A stretch of 64,000 nt of DNA from contig NZ_JACVXB010000006.1 in NCBI RefSeq assembly GCF_014596945.1, positions 125,770 through 189,769 on the forward strand, in the 5' to 3' direction. Source of the DNA: Aestuariibaculum sediminum (GTDB lineage: Bacteria; Bacteroidota; Bacteroidia; Flavobacteriales; Flavobacteriaceae). Below, piece after piece: positions 13,100-58,446 of this stretch (position 1 is the first letter of the stretch; every line of letters begins with the position of its first letter). The notes under the pieces are model-generated. The model ran no database searches and was not told the origin of the DNA. It worked only from the letters and a program-made list of their open reading frames with translations. A program made the translations under genes and the position numbers.

Positions 13100-14590
13100 A
13101 TGTTCATATACGGTATAGATAAATTAACAGTAGATAAAGTCCTTGAAATAGCTTCAGGTAAGGAAAAAGGCGGCTTAACAGATTACGCCATTGCCAAGGT
13201 TAACGAATGTAGGTCAAAGGTTGAGGTTATGGCAAATTCCAATAAGGCTGTATACGGTATTAATACCGGCTTTGGTCCTTTGTGTGATGTGAAAATATCA
13301 CCGGAAGAAACCAGTTTGTTGCAGAAAAACTTGTTGATAACACATGCTGTTGGTGTTGGGAATCCTATTGATAAAGATCTCTCAAAAATTATGCTCATCT
13401 GTAAAGCACATGCTTTAAGTCGCGGGTTTTCGGGAATCCGACTTGAGGTTATTGAGCGTATCATTTATTTTATTGAAAACGATTTGTTGCCTGTTGTACC
13501 CGAACAAGGTTCGGTTGGAGCGTCGGGCGATTTAGCGCCATTATCACATTTGTTTTTACCATTATTTGGTGAAGGTGAATTTTGGATTGGAAATGATATT
13601 ATTCCTGCGAAGGAAGTTTTGAAAGCACATAAATTAGAACCAATTGAGTTGGCGGCTAAAGAAGGTTTAGCGCTTATAAATGGCACGCAATTTATTTTAG
13701 CCCACGCCATAAAAGGCTTGAAGAAAATGGAGTATCTCCTCGATTTAGCCGATGTTGCTGGAGCTATGAGTTTAGAGGGATATCAGGGCAGTGCTTCCCC
13801 TTTTAAAGAATTGTTGCATAGTATTCGTCCGTTTAAAGGAAATTTAGAGGTGGCAGGGCGTATGCGCATGCTTTTTGAAAACTCTAATAATATCAAATCT
13901 CACGAAAACTGTGAACGCGTTCAGGATCCGTATTCTATGCGTTGTATCCCGCAAGTGCACGGCGCGTCGAGAAATGCTTATTATCATTTAAGTGAATTGG
14001 CGGAAATAGAAATGAATTCGGTTACCGATAACCCGATTGTTTTAAGTGAAACCGAAGCGATTTCGGGAGGTAATTTTCACGGACAACCGCTAGCCATGGC
14101 TTTAGATTATGCTTCAATTGCTGCTTCAGAATTAGGAAATATAGCAGACCGTCGTTGCTATTTATTATTAGAAGGAAAATTTGGACTACCTCGTTTATTA
14201 ACGGCTAGTGGCGGTTTAAATTCCGGTTTTATGATTCCGCAATACACTACGGCGGCTTTAGTTACCGAAAATAAATCGTTGTGTTTTCCTCCATCGGCAG
14301 ATAGTGTGCCAACCTCACTTGGGCAGGAAGACCACGTGTCTATGGGAAGTATCTCAGGACGTAAATTCAATCAGATTTTAGGCAATATAGAAAAGATTCT
14401 AGCCATAGAATTAATGTATGCCGCACAAGCCATGGAGTTCAGAAGACCAAATACGTTTTCTGTGATTTTAGAGCAAAACTTCAAAATTATAAGAAGTAAA
14501 GTGGCTAAGTTAGAAGAGGACCGTATTCTTAAAGACGACATTAATGCGCTCATTCAGTTAGTTAAAAATCAAGCATTCATTGTAAAATAA
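13100..14590 (+). CDS. hutH: Histidine ammonia-lyase
   Basis: 496 aa, normal for the family. It removes ammonia from L-histidine to give urocanate, the first step of histidine degradation. The tripeptide Ala141-Ser142-Gly143 (in GSVGASGDLAPL) cyclises into the MIO electrophile. Other family marks are NTGFGPL at 55-61, ALINGTQ, YSMRCIPQVHG, and SGGNFHGQPLA, followed by QEDHVSMGS near the C-terminus. It is the first gene of hutH-hutU-hutI; hutU follows after 6 bases. The divergent LysR gene is the likely regulator. Confidence 0.97.
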   Translation: MFIYGIDKLTVDKVLEIASGKEKGGLTDYAIAKVNECRSKVEVMANSNKAVYGINTGFGPLCDVKISPEETSLLQKNLLITHAVGVGNPIDKDLSKIMLICKAHALSRGFSGIRLEVIERIIYFIENDLLPVVPEQGSVGASGDLAPLSHLFLPLFGEGEFWIGNDIIPAKEVLKAHKLEPIELAAKEGLALINGTQFILAHAIKGLKKMEYLLDLADVAGAMSLEGYQGSASPFKELLHSIRPFKGNLEVAGRMRMLFENSNNIKSHENCERVQDPYSMRCIPQVHGASRNAYYHLSELAEIEMNSVTDNPIVLSETEAISGGNFHGQPLAMALDYASIAASELGNIADRRCYLLLEGKFGLPRLLTASGGLNSGFMIPQYTTAALVTENKSLCFPPSADSVPTSLGQEDHVSMGSISGRKFNQILGNIEKILAIELMYAAQAMEFRRPNTFSVILEQNFKIIRSKVAKLEEDRILKDDINALIQLVKNQAFIVK

Positions 14591-14596
14591 AACGCT

Positions 14597-16594
14597 ATGA
14601 CATTTCAAGAATTGATATTACAAGGTATTCCAAGTGAATTGCCACCACAATATAATTATCCACAGGATGCTAACAGAGCACCAAAACGAAAAGACATTTT
14701 AAACAAAGAGGAAAAGCAATTGGCCATTAGAAATGCGCTTAGGTATTTTCCAAAACAGTGGCATGAAATTTTAGCACCCGAATTTGCTCAGGAGTTGAAT
14801 GATTTCGGTAGAATTTATATGTATCGATTCAAGCCAACTTACAAAATGTATGCTCGAGGTATAGAAGAATATCCGGCAAGAACGGTTCATGCGGCAGCTA
14901 TTATGCTGATGATTCAAAATAATCTGGATCCTGCGGTAGCTCAACATCCTGAAGAATTAATAACCTATGGTGGTAATGGAGCTGTATTCCAAAACTGGGC
15001 ACAGTATTTATTAACTATGCAGTATTTGGCAACAATGACCGATGAGCAGACGCTTCATATGTATTCTGGGCACCCGATGGGATTATTCCCTTCTTCTAAA
15101 AATGCGCCTCGTGTTATTGTAACCAATGGTATGATGATTCCAAATTATTCAAAACCTGATGACTGGGAAAAATTTAATGCGCTTGGTGTTACGCAATATG
15201 GACAAATGACCGCAGGCTCATTTATGTATATTGGTCCGCAGGGTATTGTTCATGGAACAACCATTACTGTTATGAATGCTTTCAGAAAGAAGTTGCCAAA
15301 AGGAGAAACTCCCGAAGGCAAAATATTCTTAACAGCTGGTTTAGGTGGTATGAGTGGTGCGCAGCCTAAGGCAGGAAATATTGCGGGCTGTATCACTATT
15401 GCTGCTGAAGTAAATAAAAAAGCAGCAAAGAAGCGTCATGAGCAAGGTTGGGTAGATGTGTTGGTTGATAATTTAAATGATTTAGTATTACGTGTTAAAA
15501 CGGCTCAGGAAAATAAAGAAGTGGTTTCTATTGCTTACATAGGAAATGTTGTTGATATCTGGGAGCGTTTTTATGAAGAAGACATTTTTATTCATGTGGG
15601 GTCCGATCAAACCTCGTTACATATTCCATGGACTGGTGGTTACTATCCGGTTGGAATTTCTTATGAAGAATCCAACCGATTAATACGAGAAGAACCCGAA
15701 ATTTTTAAAGAAAAGGTGCAGGAATCATTACGCCGTCATGCTGAAGCCATAAATAAACATGCCGAAAGAGGTACTTATTTCTTTGATTATGGTAATGCCT
15801 TTTTATTAGAAGCGTCTCGTGCAGGAGCCGATGTGATGGCCGATAATAATATCGATTTTAAATACCCGTCATATGTTCAGGATATTCTTGGTCCTATGTG
15901 TTTCGACTACGGTTTCGGGCCATTCCGTTGGGTATGTACGTCCGGTAAACCTGAAGATTTAGATAAAACAGATGAAATAGCAATGACGGTGCTTCAGGAA
16001 ATCATGAAACATTCCCCTGAAGAAATTCAGTTACAAATGCAGGATAACATCACCTGGATAAAAGATGCTAAAAAGAACAAAATGGTTGTGGGCTCGCAAG
16101 CACGTATTTTATATGCCGATGCCGAAGGACGTGCTAAAATTGCTGAAGCTTTTAATAATGCCGTTGCAGCAGGACAAATTGGCCCAGTGGTTTTAGGTCG
16201 TGATCACCACGATGTTAGTGGAACCGATTCACCATATCGTGAAACATCTAATATTTACGATGGAAGTAAATTTACCGCCGATATGGCTATTCATAATGTT
16301 ATTGGTGATAGCTTTAGAGGAGCCACCTGGGTGTCTATACACAATGGAGGAGGCGTAGGCTGGGGTGAAGTTATGAATGGAGGTTTCGGAATGGTTTTAG
16401 ATGGTACCCCGGAAGCAGAGGCTAAACTTAAAAATATGTTATTTTTCGATGTAAATAACGGTATTGCCAGACGAAGCTGGGCTAGAAACGACGAAGCTTT
16501 GTTTGCCATTAAACGCGAAATGGAACGAACGCCTAATTTATCGGTAACAATGCCTAATTTAGTGGAAGATGATTTACTCGAAAACTTATTTTAA
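14597..16594 (+). CDS. hutU: Urocanate hydratase
   Basis: 665 aa. Converts urocanate to 4-imidazolone-5-propionate with a tightly bound NAD. Family motifs include YGGNGAVFQNW, SGHPMGLFPS, the Rossmann-like TAGLGGMSGAQPKA, and the active-site GPMCFDYGFGPFRWVC. It is about 100 residues longer than the Bacillus and Pseudomonas proteins (about 550-560 aa), with an extended N-terminal section (residues 1-70), which I take as the Bacteroidota form. Its TAA overlaps the hutI ATG (TAATG), so translation is coupled. Confidence 0.96.
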   Translation: MTFQELILQGIPSELPPQYNYPQDANRAPKRKDILNKEEKQLAIRNALRYFPKQWHEILAPEFAQELNDFGRIYMYRFKPTYKMYARGIEEYPARTVHAAAIMLMIQNNLDPAVAQHPEELITYGGNGAVFQNWAQYLLTMQYLATMTDEQTLHMYSGHPMGLFPSSKNAPRVIVTNGMMIPNYSKPDDWEKFNALGVTQYGQMTAGSFMYIGPQGIVHGTTITVMNAFRKKLPKGETPEGKIFLTAGLGGMSGAQPKAGNIAGCITIAAEVNKKAAKKRHEQGWVDVLVDNLNDLVLRVKTAQENKEVVSIAYIGNVVDIWERFYEEDIFIHVGSDQTSLHIPWTGGYYPVGISYEESNRLIREEPEIFKEKVQESLRRHAEAINKHAERGTYFFDYGNAFLLEASRAGADVMADNNIDFKYPSYVQDILGPMCFDYGFGPFRWVCTSGKPEDLDKTDEIAMTVLQEIMKHSPEEIQLQMQDNITWIKDAKKNKMVVGSQARILYADAEGRAKIAEAFNNAVAAGQIGPVVLGRDHHDVSGTDSPYRETSNIYDGSKFTADMAIHNVIGDSFRGATWVSIHNGGGVGWGEVMNGGFGMVLDGTPEAEAKLKNMLFFDVNNGIARRSWARNDEALFAIKREMERTPNLSVTMPNLVEDDLLENLF

Positions 16595-36524: not shown

Positions 36525-38003
36525 ATGAGTAAAAAACTTACCAGTAGAGCAGAAGATTATTCAAAATGGTATAACGAACTTGTAGTAAAGGCTGATTTAG
36601 CCGAGAATTCTGCTGTAAGAGGTTGTATGGTAATTAAGCCTTACGGATATGCTATTTGGGAAAAAATGCAGGCGGAATTAGACCGAATGTTTAAGGAAAC
36701 AGGACATGAAAATGCTTATTTTCCATTGTTTGTTCCAAAAAGTTTATTTGAAGCCGAGGAGAAAAATGCTGAAGGATTTGCTAAAGAGTGTGCTGTTGTA
36801 ACACATTACAGGTTGCAAAACGATCCAGATAAACCAGGTAAATTAAGAGTAGATCCAGAGGCTAAACTAGAAGAAGAACTTGTTGTTAGGCCTACTTCTG
36901 AGGCTATTATCTGGAATACCTATAGAAATTGGATACAATCCTACAGAGATTTACCCATATTAATTAATCAATGGGCAAATGTGGTTCGTTGGGAAATGCG
37001 TACTCGATTGTTTTTACGTACTGCCGAGTTTTTATGGCAGGAAGGTCATACAGCTCATGAGACAAAAGCTGAAGCATTGGCAGAAGCAAAAACGATGAAT
37101 AATGTATACGCAACTTTTGTAGAAAAATTTATGGCTATTCCTGTAGTTCAAGGAGTTAAAACTGAAAGTGAACGATTTGCAGGTGCCGAAGAAACTTATT
37201 GTATAGAGGCATTGATGCAGGACGGAAAAGCACTTCAAGCAGGAACATCACATTTCTTAGGGCAGAATTTTGCAAAAGCGTTTGATGTTAAGTATGCGAA
37301 TAAAGAAGGTAAACAGGATTATGTTTGGGCTACATCATGGGGTGTTTCTACGCGTTTAATGGGGGCATTAATTATGACTCACAGTGATGATAACGGTTTG
37401 GTATTACCTCCAAACTTAGCCCCAAATCAAGTGGTGATTGTGCCTATTTATAAAAACGAAGATCAATTATCAGAAATAACCGAAGTCGCTAATACTATCA
37501 TGAGCGATTTGCGAGCTAAGGGAATTACTGTAAAATTTGATAATAGAGATACACAGCGTCCAGGTGCTAAATTTGCACAGCATGAATTACAAGGTGTGCC
37601 TTTAAGAATTGCAATTGGACCTAAAGATCTCGAAAATGGTACAGTTGAATTAGCACGACGAGACACGCTTACCAAATCTATTGTAACATTAAATGAACTC
37701 GCAGTAACTGTCGAAGAATTGCTAAAGGAGATTCAAGAGACCTTATTTAATAAGGCATTAAACTTTAGAGATACTCATGTAACAGAGGTCGATACTTTTG
37801 AGGAATTTAAGAATGTTCTTGAAACGAAAACAGGATTTGTATCTGCACATTGGGATGGAACTAATGAGACAGAAGAGAAAATAAAAGAATTAACTAAAGC
37901 TACTATTAGATGTATTCCTTTGGATATGAAGGAGGAAGAAGGTGTTTGTGTGTATTCAGGTAAGCCATCAAAAGGACGCGTTTTATTTGCTAAAGCCTAT
38001 TAA
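36525..38003 (+). CDS. proS: Proline-tRNA ligase, type 3 (eukaryote/archaea-like)
   Basis: 492 aa from the ATG at 36525 ([11 protein letters not shown]). Class II synthetase; motif 2 region [24 protein letters not shown], then the anticodon-binding domain (VVIVPIYKN) and the extra C-terminal domain ending in a Tyr (GRVLFAKAY), which marks the type 3 proline enzymes that lack the INS editing domain. RPTSEAIIW at about 128-136 is the proline-pocket motif. Type 3 is normal for Bacteroidota. The two tRNA-Glu genes follow. Confidence 0.96.
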
Positions 38004-55786: not shown

Positions 55787-55860
55787 GGCCACGTGGCGCA
55801 ACTGAATAGCGCACTTGATTACGGCTCAAGAGGTTCCAGGTTTGAATCCTGGCGTGGTCA
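55787..55860 (+). tRNA. tRNA-Arg (ACG), attachment site of the island
   Basis: 74 bases, no encoded CCA. Acceptor GGCCACG / CGTGGTC; anticodon arm CTTGA-TTACGGC-TCAAG gives anticodon ACG; T-arm CCAGG-TTTGAAT-CCTGG. It is intact. The 3' end CTGGCGTGGTCAC is repeated at 58400-58412, beyond the following island. Confidence 0.96.
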
Positions 55861-55861
55861 C
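55840..55861 (+). repeat. Left attachment repeat (tRNA 3' end)
   Basis: The T-arm and acceptor end of tRNA-Arg. It shares 13 identical bases (CTGGCGTGGTCAC) and a degenerate T-loop with 58391-58412. Confidence 0.6.
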
Positions 55862-55867
55862 TATAAG

Positions 55868-55896
55868 AACCCTGTAAATCATTGATTTTCAGGGTT
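55868..55896 (+). terminator. Hairpin after tRNA-Arg
   Basis: AACCCTG-T-AAATC-ATT-GATTT-T-CAGGGTT, followed by T-rich DNA. It probably ends the tRNA transcript after island insertion. Confidence 0.75.
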
Positions 55897-55917
55897 TTAT
55901 GCTTATATTTACTCCTG

Positions 55918-55950
55918 TTTGCACAACATCTGCACAACATTTGCACAGCA
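55918..55950 (+). repeat. Three tandem 11-bp repeats, left island end
   Basis: TTTGCACAACA, TCTGCACAACA, TTTGCACAGCA, back to back. Two related units recur at 58273-58294. They look like arm-type sites for a tyrosine recombinase. Confidence 0.75.
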
Positions 55951-56080
55951 ATTAAACTGTCTTAACATTCTTATTTTTAGAATTTTATACTATTTTAAAT
56001 GAATCCTAACTTTAATGTATCAATTTGTAACATTACCGAAATTAGTTAATTTTTAAATAGCTTGTCATTTATTATCAATT

Positions 56081-56108
56081 TTGATTTAAGAAAAATATTA
56101 TAAATTTG
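56081..56108 (+). promoter_or_regulatory. Promoter for the island membrane protein
   Basis: TTG (56081-56083), 17 bases, TAAATTTG (56101-56108), 40 bases before the TTG start codon. Confidence 0.6.
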
Positions 56109-56148
56109 ATTTAATTAATAAATTAAATCTCAGATAATCATTAGGCTT

Positions 56149-57003
56149 TTGAATAAAATCAGATTAATAAACATAGTTTTACTTACTATAGTTTTGATTC
56201 TAGTGTTCTTTAGTGGTACTTCAAAAGATTCTGTTTTATCTTTTCTTGGAGCAGCTATATTCTATTTTGTCATTTCCCATTTACTCGTAGGAGGGAATTT
56301 AGAGAAGAAAGGGTATTATATTCTTTTAGTCCTTTTGTATTTATCCATTTGGATATTTCCATTAATTCATTTTATGTTCTATAAGTATGATTTAAACCTA
56401 TATTATAAATCTGATTATTTTACAGATTCTGTAGAGTATAGGCTGGAACAAGAAAAGCATGATAAGATGTTTTCAGAAGTTAAACATAAAATAGTTGATA
56501 AAGCTTTAAGATTAGAGGATAGTCTTGTTTTAGGTGCTAATGACTATTTTTATTTTAAAAAATTAAATTATCTAGATAGTATTACAACAAATAGATTTGA
56601 TGGCACTGTAATAAAATCTAAGTCTGATTATTTAAGTTTAAAACCTGGACCTATGTCCGGAGGTGGTATTCATACTCAAGGTTTATATTTAGTGCTTTAT
56701 AAAAATAATCTTAAAATTAGATTAAAGTATGATATTGGGGATAGTAAAACTTTAGAAAGTCATCTTAAAAAGTATAGTCAAAATTATAAGAATTTTATAA
56801 ATCGTTATAATGATGTTTATGAAGAAATTGGTTTTATTGATTTTTGGCTTGCTTCTGTATCACTTTTTAAATTTTCTGAATTAATACCTAATTCAAACTT
56901 AACCAAATTGATTTGGTTAATTCAATCTGCCGTTTCATTCATCTTATTATTTTTTATATCAAATTCACTTCCCAAAATATCACTACAGACTAAAAAAGGT
57001 TAA
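56149..57003 (+). CDS. Island membrane protein with four membrane segments, unknown
   Basis: 284 aa beginning at TTG 56149 (MNKIRLINIVLLTIVLILVF); a consensus promoter precedes it. Three N-terminal membrane helices (about 6-21, 29-47, 57-76) are followed by an about 180-residue soluble, charged helical and beta region (Tyr- and Lys-rich, with LKPGPMSGGGIHTQGLYLVLYKNN) and a last membrane helix (about 259-276). I do not recognise the family. It is convergent with the SIR2-like gene, 32 bases apart. In defence loci, membrane proteins often serve as effectors or sensors; this is conjecture. Confidence 0.7.
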   Translation: MNKIRLINIVLLTIVLILVFFSGTSKDSVLSFLGAAIFYFVISHLLVGGNLEKKGYYILLVLLYLSIWIFPLIHFMFYKYDLNLYYKSDYFTDSVEYRLEQEKHDKMFSEVKHKIVDKALRLEDSLVLGANDYFYFKKLNYLDSITTNRFDGTVIKSKSDYLSLKPGPMSGGGIHTQGLYLVLYKNNLKIRLKYDIGDSKTLESHLKKYSQNYKNFINRYNDVYEEIGFIDFWLASVSLFKFSELIPNSNLTKLIWLIQSAVSFILLFFISNSLPKISLQTKKG

Positions 57004-57035
57004 CTAAAGTTAATTCGTTACATGCAAATATTAAG

Positions 57036-58148
57036 TTAGAAGACCATTTTTTCTGCTGATTTTGGATTTAAGAACTCATGAGGTATGTAGAATTGTTTTG
57101 GGATATCTCTATTTATAGTGACGCTATTGTTGTTTGAACCAAAAAAGGAATTCATAATATCGTCACTTGCTGCAGGGTCTTGATAAATTACTTCTGTTAA
57201 ACCTTTACCTCCTCTAAAAGAATCTATTAAGTCAGTATCGATTCTTCTGTTAAAAGCAGGAAAGGAATATCCTATTATAACGAGTACATCTGCTTCTGAC
57301 ATAATTTTTTTTGCAGCATCTCTATTTTTATTATTCTCCCAAGCATAATTTATATAATTCCTATACATTGATTTATGATCTCTGAAATCATTCACATTAT
57401 CAAGAATGTCTAATAAAAAATCTTCCTTTTTGTCGATTCGAGAATCCGATAATACACTAAAATGTTTGCTTTCATCTTTAAATACTCCACTGAATCCGTT
57501 TAAATGAATAATATCTCTTTTGACTCCAGGATAGTCTGTATTCAGAAAATTAAAAGATTTATTTACATTAATAAAATCACTTTCCTTATCCCTCATAAAA
57601 GTTTGATAAGCTTTTTCTAATTGTAAATCGTAATTCCAACTAATGAATGTGACATTTTCATTTAATTTGGGATTGCCGCCTTGTGTAGGTTCTAGCAAAA
57701 CTGATAATAAACTCAAATAACGTTTATCTATATTTGAATAATATTGTCTTTTATCTCTGTCCATAGGCTGGCCTTTGAAAAGTAAGTTTTCCCAAAAAGT
57801 AAAAAAAGTGCTAGCTGTGAATTTTAATCGGTCTAACTCATCAATTAATCCAAGTAAATATAGTCTTCGTGCATATATATCTAGAGATCCGAACTCCGTT
57901 GCTTTTAGTCCGAAATAGTATAAATCTTCTGCAACTTCATTTAGTTTGTTAGCTTCATGTTTTAATCTTTGGTATTTATCCTGATTTATTACATCTGTAT
58001 TTCCGATTATTGTTTTAATCTGATTAGAGGCTTCTATCATTCCATTTCCAAGTTTTTCTTGAATTGGTACGGCATTATAACTTGCTCCAGCCCCTAAGTA
58101 GTATACTATTTTTAAATTAGTTGTATCCGAATATCTTGATATAGCCAT
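57036..58148 (-). CDS. SIR2-like NAD-binding protein, candidate defence effector
   Basis: 370 aa. NAD-binding loop G19-A-G-A-S23 (YYLGAGASYNA), F168-I-S-W-N172-Y-D174 (the T-x-N-x-D site), H215-L-N-G218 (catalytic His) and VIIGYSFPAFNRRID at 290-304. These are the SIR2-like core residues of prokaryotic NADase effectors (SIR2_2 type), where the N and H are needed for NAD cleavage. A helical middle (residues 55-150) holds an SLDIYARRLYL motif. There are no zinc Cys residues and no membrane segment. It lies inside the tRNA-Arg island. An abortive-infection role is likely by family; the trigger is unknown. Confidence 0.8.
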   Translation of the reverse strand: MAISRYSDTTNLKIVYYLGAGASYNAVPIQEKLGNGMIEASNQIKTIIGNTDVINQDKYQRLKHEANKLNEVAEDLYYFGLKATEFGSLDIYARRLYLLGLIDELDRLKFTASTFFTFWENLLFKGQPMDRDKRQYYSNIDKRYLSLLSVLLEPTQGGNPKLNENVTFISWNYDLQLEKAYQTFMRDKESDFINVNKSFNFLNTDYPGVKRDIIHLNGFSGVFKDESKHFSVLSDSRIDKKEDFLLDILDNVNDFRDHKSMYRNYINYAWENNKNRDAAKKIMSEADVLVIIGYSFPAFNRRIDTDLIDSFRGGKGLTEVIYQDPAASDDIMNSFFGSNNNSVTINRDIPKQFYIPHEFLNPKSAEKMVF

Positions 58149-58272
58149 TTTTATTTGTTATTAGTTGAATAAAAGTAATAAATATATGTAAATGTTTTCT
58201 TTCTTTAACAGGTGGCTGTAGATAAATAAAATTCAATAAAAATATTTAAAATGTCTAGAAATTGATATTTGG

Positions 58273-58294
58273 TTTGCACGACATTTGCACAGCA
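58273..58294 (+). repeat. Two tandem 11-bp repeats, right island end
   Basis: TTTGCACGACA, TTTGCACAGCA. Same orientation and sequence family as the three units at 55918-55950. Confidence 0.75.
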
Positions 58295-58390
58295 ATTGTG
58301 TTATGTATTGATACCTAATATAACATAAATAGAGGCTATTATACTATTAACCTTTTATTTATGGGGCTTTGGCGTTCTATTTAGTACAAG

Positions 58391-58412
58391 GTTCGGAATC
58401 TGGCGTGGTCAC
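58391..58412 (+). repeat. Right attachment repeat, degenerate tRNA-Arg 3' end
   Basis: GTTCGGAATCTGGCGTGGTCAC. The last 13 bases equal the tRNA-Arg 3' end plus one base. The preceding part looks like a T-loop with an insertion and a deletion. No tRNA can form here. Confidence 0.65.
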
Positions 58413-58446
58413 AAAAGCTTCACTAGAAATAGTGGAGCTTTTTTAT
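58413..58446 (+). terminator. Hairpin terminator next to the right attachment repeat
   Basis: AAAAGCT-T-CACTA / TAGTG-G-AGCTTTT with a GAAA loop and T-tract, directly after the tRNA remnant. Probably the original terminator of tRNA-Arg before island insertion. Confidence 0.75.

Follow-up and report, generated by a model that had tools for sequence, protein, structure and literature searches.

The 64,000-nucleotide stretch of Aestuariibaculum sediminum DNA that we analysed (the window) contains a small island, inserted at the 3' end of a tRNA gene, which is very probably an integrated element with the arm sites of an integrase and without the integrase itself. Arrays of tandem 11-bp units stand at both ends of the island, spaced as in larger elements that encode a tyrosine integrase, and its ends recur around unrelated cargo in other genomes. 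This arrangement leads us to infer that the arrays are bound by an integrase encoded elsewhere, on another element, which mobilises the cassette or did so in the past. That the cassette is actively moved in trans is a more tentative proposal, to which we would give a little less than an even chance.

The island, its arrays and its cargo

The left array (55918-55950, + strand) consists of the units TTTGCACAACA, TCTGCACAACA and TTTGCACAGCA, in that order, and the right array (58273-58294, + strand) of TTTGCACGACA followed by TTTGCACAGCA; we propose that they are the P'-arm and P-arm integrase sites, respectively. Our pattern search confirmed the coordinates and the description in the first-pass annotation, which had reported three units on the left and two on the right, in one orientation and back to back without spacers. 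The first unit of the left array is an exact TTTGCACAACA and the remaining four of the five are each one base off. At up to one mismatch the whole window holds eight units, compared to a mean of 2.62 in shuffled sequence, and none of 100 shuffles reaches eight; since at least one of 300 windows simulated with a first-order Markov model does reach it, the number of units alone is weak evidence. Tandem adjacency is the strong, non-chance signal: there are three adjacent pairs in the window and none in the 300 Markov windows. The three further units (at 37572, 43181 and 43384) stand singly.

The target of the insertion is a tRNA-Arg(acg) gene found by ARAGORN (55787-55861, + strand), the 3' end of which forms the left attachment core. 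Sequence comparison revealed a 13-bp run at 55849-55861 (attL, + strand) identical to one at 58400-58412 (attR, + strand), the latter being a copy of the tRNA 3' end; the arrays do lie just inside attachment repeats, as had been claimed. In one of four congeners, G004, the same tRNA is followed by three bases and then by the 33 bases AAAAGCTTCACTAGAAATAGTGGAGCTTTTTTA that stand 3' of the core copy on the right side of the window island, which marks the right junction as a boundary of the insertion; further out than the 33 bases the two flanks cease to align, and in the other three congeners (G001-G003) the sequence 3' of this tRNA differs. The core copies and the G004 junction together define an island of 2,551 bp (55862-58412). 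Its insertion displaced by 2.55 kb a terminator-like hairpin native to the tRNA gene (58413-58442, + strand; terminator scan), which in G004 lies three bases behind the same tRNA. Right behind the tRNA in the window is an imperfect inverted repeat (87%; 55863-55900, positions 2-39 of the element in a self-blastn) that probably ends the tRNA transcript in place of the native terminator; the terminator scan gave no score for it. In G002 and G003 (loci L161 and L162), the sequence behind tRNA-Arg(acg) is unlike the island, and its tandem repeats differ from those in the window; integrase genes lie close by, and this site is apparently used by several element families.

The island carries two open reading frames. 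The first (56149-57003, + strand) has a TTG start and encodes a putative membrane protein of 284 residues, with hydrophobic stretches near both ends as judged by eye. It has no match in Pfam, PADLOC or PHROGs, and its one match in NCBIfam, to TraY, is at chance level (E 0.02, 15 bits against a cut-off of 147). The second (57036-58148, - strand) encodes a SIR2-like protein of 370 residues, assigned from Pfam (SIR2_2, E 0.015, below the cut-off), PADLOC (SIR2, E 7e-4) and an alignment with four relatives. The motifs GAGAS, WNYD and GYS, which we take to be SIR2 signatures, are invariant across these five proteins, four of which weakly match SIR2_2. The four relatives were found in 299 genomes of the family, with the window's genome excluded. 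The closest of them (44% identical, in G011) adjoins genes that resemble type I restriction-modification genes on reading the sequence; in the sequence available around the four, no array or tRNA is close to any of them. Searches with the SIR2-like protein returned no match among plasmids, three Leptospira phages at 26% identity, and no convincing match among solved structures; a single-sequence structure prediction (mean pLDDT 31) was not used. Among the island's ORFs we recognised no integrase, relaxase or phage gene and no replication gene. The cargo would be anti-phage, with one of the two genes probably being antiviral.

Distribution of the arrays and their integrases

We scanned a collection of species genomes with TGCACAACATNTGCACAACA, which returned 67 stretches containing 68 exact arrays that could be scored. 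Of these, 37 lie 13-68 nt 3' of a tRNA gene on the same strand, most commonly at 55 nt (12 arrays), and they cover 16 tRNA species by anticodon; for random positions in the same stretches, 0.44 of 68 would be expected at a tRNA. Eleven others are found near the start of a tyrosine-integrase gene, seven within 66 nt and four at 193-376 nt. No array lies at both a tRNA and an integrase, and 20 lie at neither. Among these unplaced arrays, three have less than 140 nt of upstream sequence (L052, L065 and L070), one (L035) showed no tRNA after its upstream sequence was extended, one (L074) is the right end of a cassette described below (G021), one (L084) is the left end of a tandem element, and eight come from Actinobacteria or a cyanobacterium, groups outside our integrase model.

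The right end was sought at 41 tRNA-side loci, some of them one place represented twice and some cut by contig ends, and was absent from 31 within the sequence available. Two more arrays, at tRNA-Arg(tct) genes (L216 and L236; gaps of 56 and 58 nt), have no recognised integrase or right end in the sequence available and are possible further cassettes or long elements. At L077:1-1270, from a member of the Flavobacteriaceae, two arrays lie in front of a partial integrase; in contrast to the other elements, the tRNA-Arg(tct) close to it lies on the opposite strand.

A second sample of 361 class-level genomes was drawn regardless of mobile elements. Nine of them, including the window's own, match at up to two mismatches; the reversed control pattern has one match in the same sample. 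The other eight genomes contain 10 arrays, six of which follow a tRNA on the same strand (at 46-65 nt in five cases and at 169 nt in one), while three lie at the start of an integrase gene and one at neither. Enrichment at tRNA 3' ends and integrases, which the first-pass annotation had predicted, is what we observe, both in the collection (37 of 68 arrays against 0.44 expected, and 11 of 68 at integrases) and class-wide (9 of 10); the scattering of repeats that it named as the opposite outcome did not occur. Exact arrays are rare overall, being present in 3 of 395 genomes of the order and in 2 of 398 in the genus of G491. One array in G491 itself (L198:8053-8074), made of one exact unit and one unit with a single mismatch, has no tRNA or array-bearing (armed) integrase nearby and lies, by eye, between a gene for a Uma2-like nuclease and a YoeB-like toxin-antitoxin pair. 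At four loci (L021, L041, L044 and L071), to which no integrase could be assigned, actinobacterial tRNAs are followed at a similar distance by an array of the same kind, with TATGCACAACA as its second unit; arrays containing TATGCACAACA stand 3' of tRNAs in Propionibacteriaceae.

In the window's genus, a number of integrases have other tandem pairs of 11-12 bp at this position, in front of the start codon, GGGGCAACA and TAGTCCAT being examples (by eye; L164-L193). Given that integrases of a single genus differ in their pairs, such a pair would seem to be an arm site specific to its integrase, and matching each motif to the N-terminal domain of its integrase could yield a recognition code. A similar, oppositely oriented pair in G003 and G004 (L188 and L178) was set aside. 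A tree built from 47 integrases accounts for the 18 armed ones with 5 label changes, compared to 14.5 in shuffles, in a sample that is biased because most armed integrases were found through the motif; 12 of them, mostly from Bacteroidales, group together with modest support (87/89). The tree leaves out L046, L077, L187, L155, L156, L186, L192, L193, L030 and any sequence shorter than 350 residues. The L084 integrase, whose own arms differ and which belongs to the neighbouring tandem element, was rejected as armed and relabelled before the tree was built; it is still among the 16 rows of the integrase alignment (A1) and in the search model. To judge from the 5 label changes and the arrays at actinobacterial tRNAs, the motif marks several integrase lineages and not one. 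The proposal that it would serve as a tag for a family of elements needs correcting in that the motif does not single out one integrase clade.

The association with tRNAs and integrases, together with the spacing described below, supports the earlier interpretation of the arrays as recombinase arm sites. The related idea that they lie next to a recombinase gene holds for the 11 of 68 arrays found close to where a tyrosine-integrase gene begins. The island in the window encodes no recombinase, and its arrays therefore cannot be served from within it.

Cassettes without an integrase and elements with one

Besides the window island we found four relatives that lack an integrase, with sizes of 1.1-2.9 kb: one in the same genus (G004; 2,478 bp at tRNA-Arg(tct)), one in Algibacter sp. 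(G021; 2,397 bp at tRNA-Arg(tcg)), one in the same family (G109; 2,873 bp at tRNA-Arg(tct)) and one in Dysgonomonas sp. UBA5412 (G443; 1,122 bp at tRNA-Leu(taa)). The five cassettes come from two orders of Bacteroidota, each has both arms and both cores, and four of the five measure 2.4-2.9 kb; because they were found through the motif, their number and sizes represent a biased sample. Neither an integrase HMM nor tblastn with 53 integrase queries found a trace of an integrase in any of the five, the best E-value being 0.009, and 26 of the same 53 queries matched a control locus. The best hit, an integrase-like match of 48 residues in G109 (E 0.009 from 53 queries), was taken as chance. A candidate for a sixth cassette (L126:4062-4239, in G364) has a tRNA-Arg(tct), one degenerate array and no right end; it was not counted and is perhaps a half-erased site.

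These cassettes have ends in common around unrelated cargo. The left end of the window island (55868-55940, + strand) is 84% identical to that of the G021 cassette over 74 aligned positions, its right end (58273-58333, + strand; 61 bp) is 84% identical to that of the G004 cassette, and the left ends of G109 and G443 are 83% identical over 59 bp. The G004 cassette encodes an ApeA-like HEPN protein (Pfam ApeA_NTD1, E 2e-17) and a neighbour of 240 residues. In G021 there is a protein matching PADLOC RmrA (E 1e-57), which also shows a likeness to antitoxins in NCBIfam below the cut-off, and an unassigned ORF of 218 residues. The G109 cassette encodes a VF530-type DNA-binding protein (Pfam, E 6e-32) and has two ORFs without assignment. 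An HEPN-like RNxxxH motif is visible by eye in the G004 neighbour ORF and in a 248-residue ORF of G109. The two small ORFs of G443 have no Pfam or PADLOC assignment. Overall, the cargo matches a defence family in three of the five cassettes (the window island, weakly, G004 and G021) and not in the other two.

Nine integrase-bearing elements could be measured at both ends and span 7.2-17.7 kb, although in G049 and G467 the att copy on the right was identified from a 20-base match with 3 mismatches. Their layout is a tRNA (or tandem core), an array, cargo, an integrase gene pointing inward, a second array and the att copy. The spacing of the window island is similar to that of these elements and in places identical with it. 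The gap between the tRNA and the left array is 56 nt in the window and 47-68 nt in all elements but G467 (112 nt). From the right array to the att end there are 118 nt in the window, in G004, in G443 and in the integrase-bearing element of G470, 117 nt in G424, 128-129 nt in G109 and G021 (in G021, 118 nt if the last two of three units are counted) and 141-201 nt in the other integrase-bearing elements. With the ends joined, the two arrays of the window island lie 174 bp apart, the same distance as in G443 and in the G470 element, in both of which the right array is weak (7 mismatches in 22 positions). On an IMG/VR contig, both arrays stand 186 bp apart beside an integrase, not far from the 174 bp of the window island with its ends joined; this pair, in which no core was identified, might represent the unintegrated attP layout.

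The element in Dysgonomonas sp. HGC4 (G470, locus L214) and the G443 cassette match at both ends. It is 13.4 kb long, encodes a tyrosine integrase of 447 residues and uses the same tRNA-Leu core as G443. On the reverse complement of L214 (1-15947), two elements with different arm motifs stand in tandem at one tRNA-Leu core, and the G470 element is the one behind the other. Its left 80 bp are 92.5% identical and its right 305 bp 88% identical to those of the G443 cassette, the similarity at the right end reaching to 18 bp from the integrase start; between the ends, the two have only short matches in common. Of the second, 90-residue ORF of G443, 35 codons survive as a stub before the G470 integrase (15644-15748 of the L214 reverse complement), showing that the cassette and the element have exchanged or lost parts, and a shorter second fragment of this ORF is found near 13281. 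The shared ends of G443 would fit derivation from a larger element, and the relation could run either way. Searching 25 genomes of its genus for the G443 right end yielded no further copy, one 37-bp match apart. The G470 element is a likely helper type for the G443 cassette, and the two make a ready pair of cassette and helper type for a direct test of integration in trans.

Origin of the cassettes and comparison with known systems

In the mechanism we propose, the arrays would be arm-type sites of a tyrosine-integrase attachment system that reads, with the ends joined, P array, about 105 bp, core, 56 bp and P' array, as in a lambda-type attP. The island supplies in cis the core, both arms and the spacing that such recombination needs, with no recognisable integrase, transfer or packaging gene of its own; the integrase of another element would bind the arrays and core and recombine the circle with the chromosome. 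The cassette would reach a new cell together with an integrase-bearing element or through general uptake.

A strong competitor, itself not far short of an even chance, is that the island is a dead relic of a larger, integrase-bearing element from which the integrase was deleted, leaving it immobile, or mobile only in cis, once a second element has inserted beside it, as in the textbook route for cis-mobilizable elements. Such remnants are familiar, with cargo-bearing cis-mobilizable elements (CIMEs) of 1.2-13 kb described as common in streptococci (PMC7563491), and tandem insertion does occur in this group, as in the G470 element that stands behind another. No array-bearing helper was found in the window's genome (G000) either: an integrase search gave 14 match rows, some of them pieces of one gene, and none of the six integrase loci examined from these rows bears the array. 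A pattern search of the whole genome at up to three mismatches found no array outside the island, so that no resident helper is known; a missing array-bearing integrase would fit a past helper and a relic equally. Against decay stand the five cassettes from two orders that have both arms and both cores and no trace of an integrase, albeit in a sample found by motif, and the ends that the window island, G004 and G021 have in common around unrelated cargo, which independent decay does not readily predict. Nor did the pattern search and the ORFs of the window reveal a second array or integrase beside the cassette.

It is unlikely that the arrays bind a host or element accessory factor (IHF-, Fis- or Xis-like) and not the arm domain of an integrase. 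The motif does stand beside integrases that are just 14-22% identical to the first sequence of our alignment (one close relative at 64%), and it follows actinobacterial tRNAs, which is unexpected for a site specific to one integrase. However, a host factor would call for one motif per host, and several integrases of the window's genus carry, by eye, a pair that differs at this position; the armed integrases also cluster on the tree (5 changes compared to 14.5 when shuffled, in a biased sample). Tandem 11-bp units resemble iterons in form, and operator or iteron sites that regulate or replicate the cargo, with no role in integration, are a very improbable alternative: the array recurs at comparable distances from tRNA ends ahead of many different sequences, and the window island has no recognised replication gene. 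Single units do arise by chance, and chance as the source of the repeats near the tRNA is next to negligible given 0 tandem pairs in 300 simulations and 37 tRNA-side arrays against 0.44 expected.

Several known kinds of element differ from the window island. DDE-type non-autonomous transposons of the MITE-like kind have terminal inverted repeats; the window island has arrays in direct orientation and a core derived from a tRNA, and self-blastn finds no end-to-end inverted repeat. Phage satellites encode an integrase together with packaging or capsid-hijacking genes, and the two ORFs of the island have no such matches. Nor is it an IME or mobile genomic island, given that it encodes no integrase of its own. 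In lambda-type attP sites and the DR-2 repeats of Tn916, arm-type integrase sites are short repeats that flank the core. The window repeats are likewise found on both sides of the core and inside the element, with three tandem sites on one arm, a resemblance of position and spacing only; they differ in being predicted sites, with a sequence and spacing of their own, in an element without an integrase gene. The HGC4 element has the same left array and 174-bp inter-array distance as the window island, and differs in its 13.4-kb length, its 447-residue integrase and its tRNA-Leu core in place of tRNA-Arg.

Tycheposons, quoted in PMC10872708 as having a tyrosine recombinase and a size of 4-200 kb, are excluded as a class for an island of 2.55 kb with no recombinase. 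The 10K genomic island of Riemerella anatipestifer is, like the window island, a flavobacterial element at tRNA-Arg; it is 10 kb long, has a 53-bp att repeat and encodes its own tyrosine integrase, which integrates and excises it (PMC6764341), and the word 'arm' is absent from the main text of that report. The Pseudomonas tmRNA islands I23, I44 and I55 (PMC12595487) and the integrase-only defence islands of E. coli (PMC10121019) are described as defence cargo at a tRNA or tmRNA, with no transfer genes and with mobility that depends, or may depend, on other elements. They have their own integrase, whereas the window cassette has none.

By structure, the window island is best described as a CIME with its arms intact. 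CIMEs are defined as cargo-bearing elements that retain attL and attR and encode neither recombination nor transfer functions (PMC5704250, PMC7563491). The island has attachment sites at both ends (the 13-bp cores, both arrays and the empty junction in G004), no integrase or recombination gene by the integrase HMM and tblastn, and no conjugation or mobilisation gene in its two ORFs, the TraY match being at chance level; its 2.55 kb also fall inside the quoted range of 1.2-13 kb (PMC7563491). No parent ICE or IME was found. Solitary CIMEs at tRNAs are known from a tRNA-Lys survey in Streptococcus agalactiae (cited in PMC7563491), and the large streptococcal survey states that its own method is unable to find single CIMEs (PMC7563491). 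The arm-array tag, at its typical distance from a tRNA, finds solitary CIMEs without the help of an integrase gene, and does so here in Bacteroidota, a group for which a narrow literature search found no description of them. We also found no description of integrase-less cassettes with these arms in the open-access literature, and no paper on integrases, by title, among the listed open-access matches to the motif strings.

It is conceivable, though we hold the odds to be slightly against it, that these cassettes are scattered members of one class of minimal defence cassettes in Bacteroidota, which lack an integrase, hold one or a few cargo genes between standard ends (a tRNA core plus tandem TTTGCACAACA arms) and are integrated and excised in trans by integrases that larger elements with matching arms encode. 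If so, immune genes would circulate as parasites of other elements' integrases, and small islands without mobility genes, usually dismissed as relics, would be a route for the spread of defence genes. The window island differs from the streptococcal CIMEs in lying in Bacteroidota, in its intact arms, with spacing in common with integrase-bearing elements, and in ends that recur on cassettes around unrelated, often defence-like cargo (three of five).
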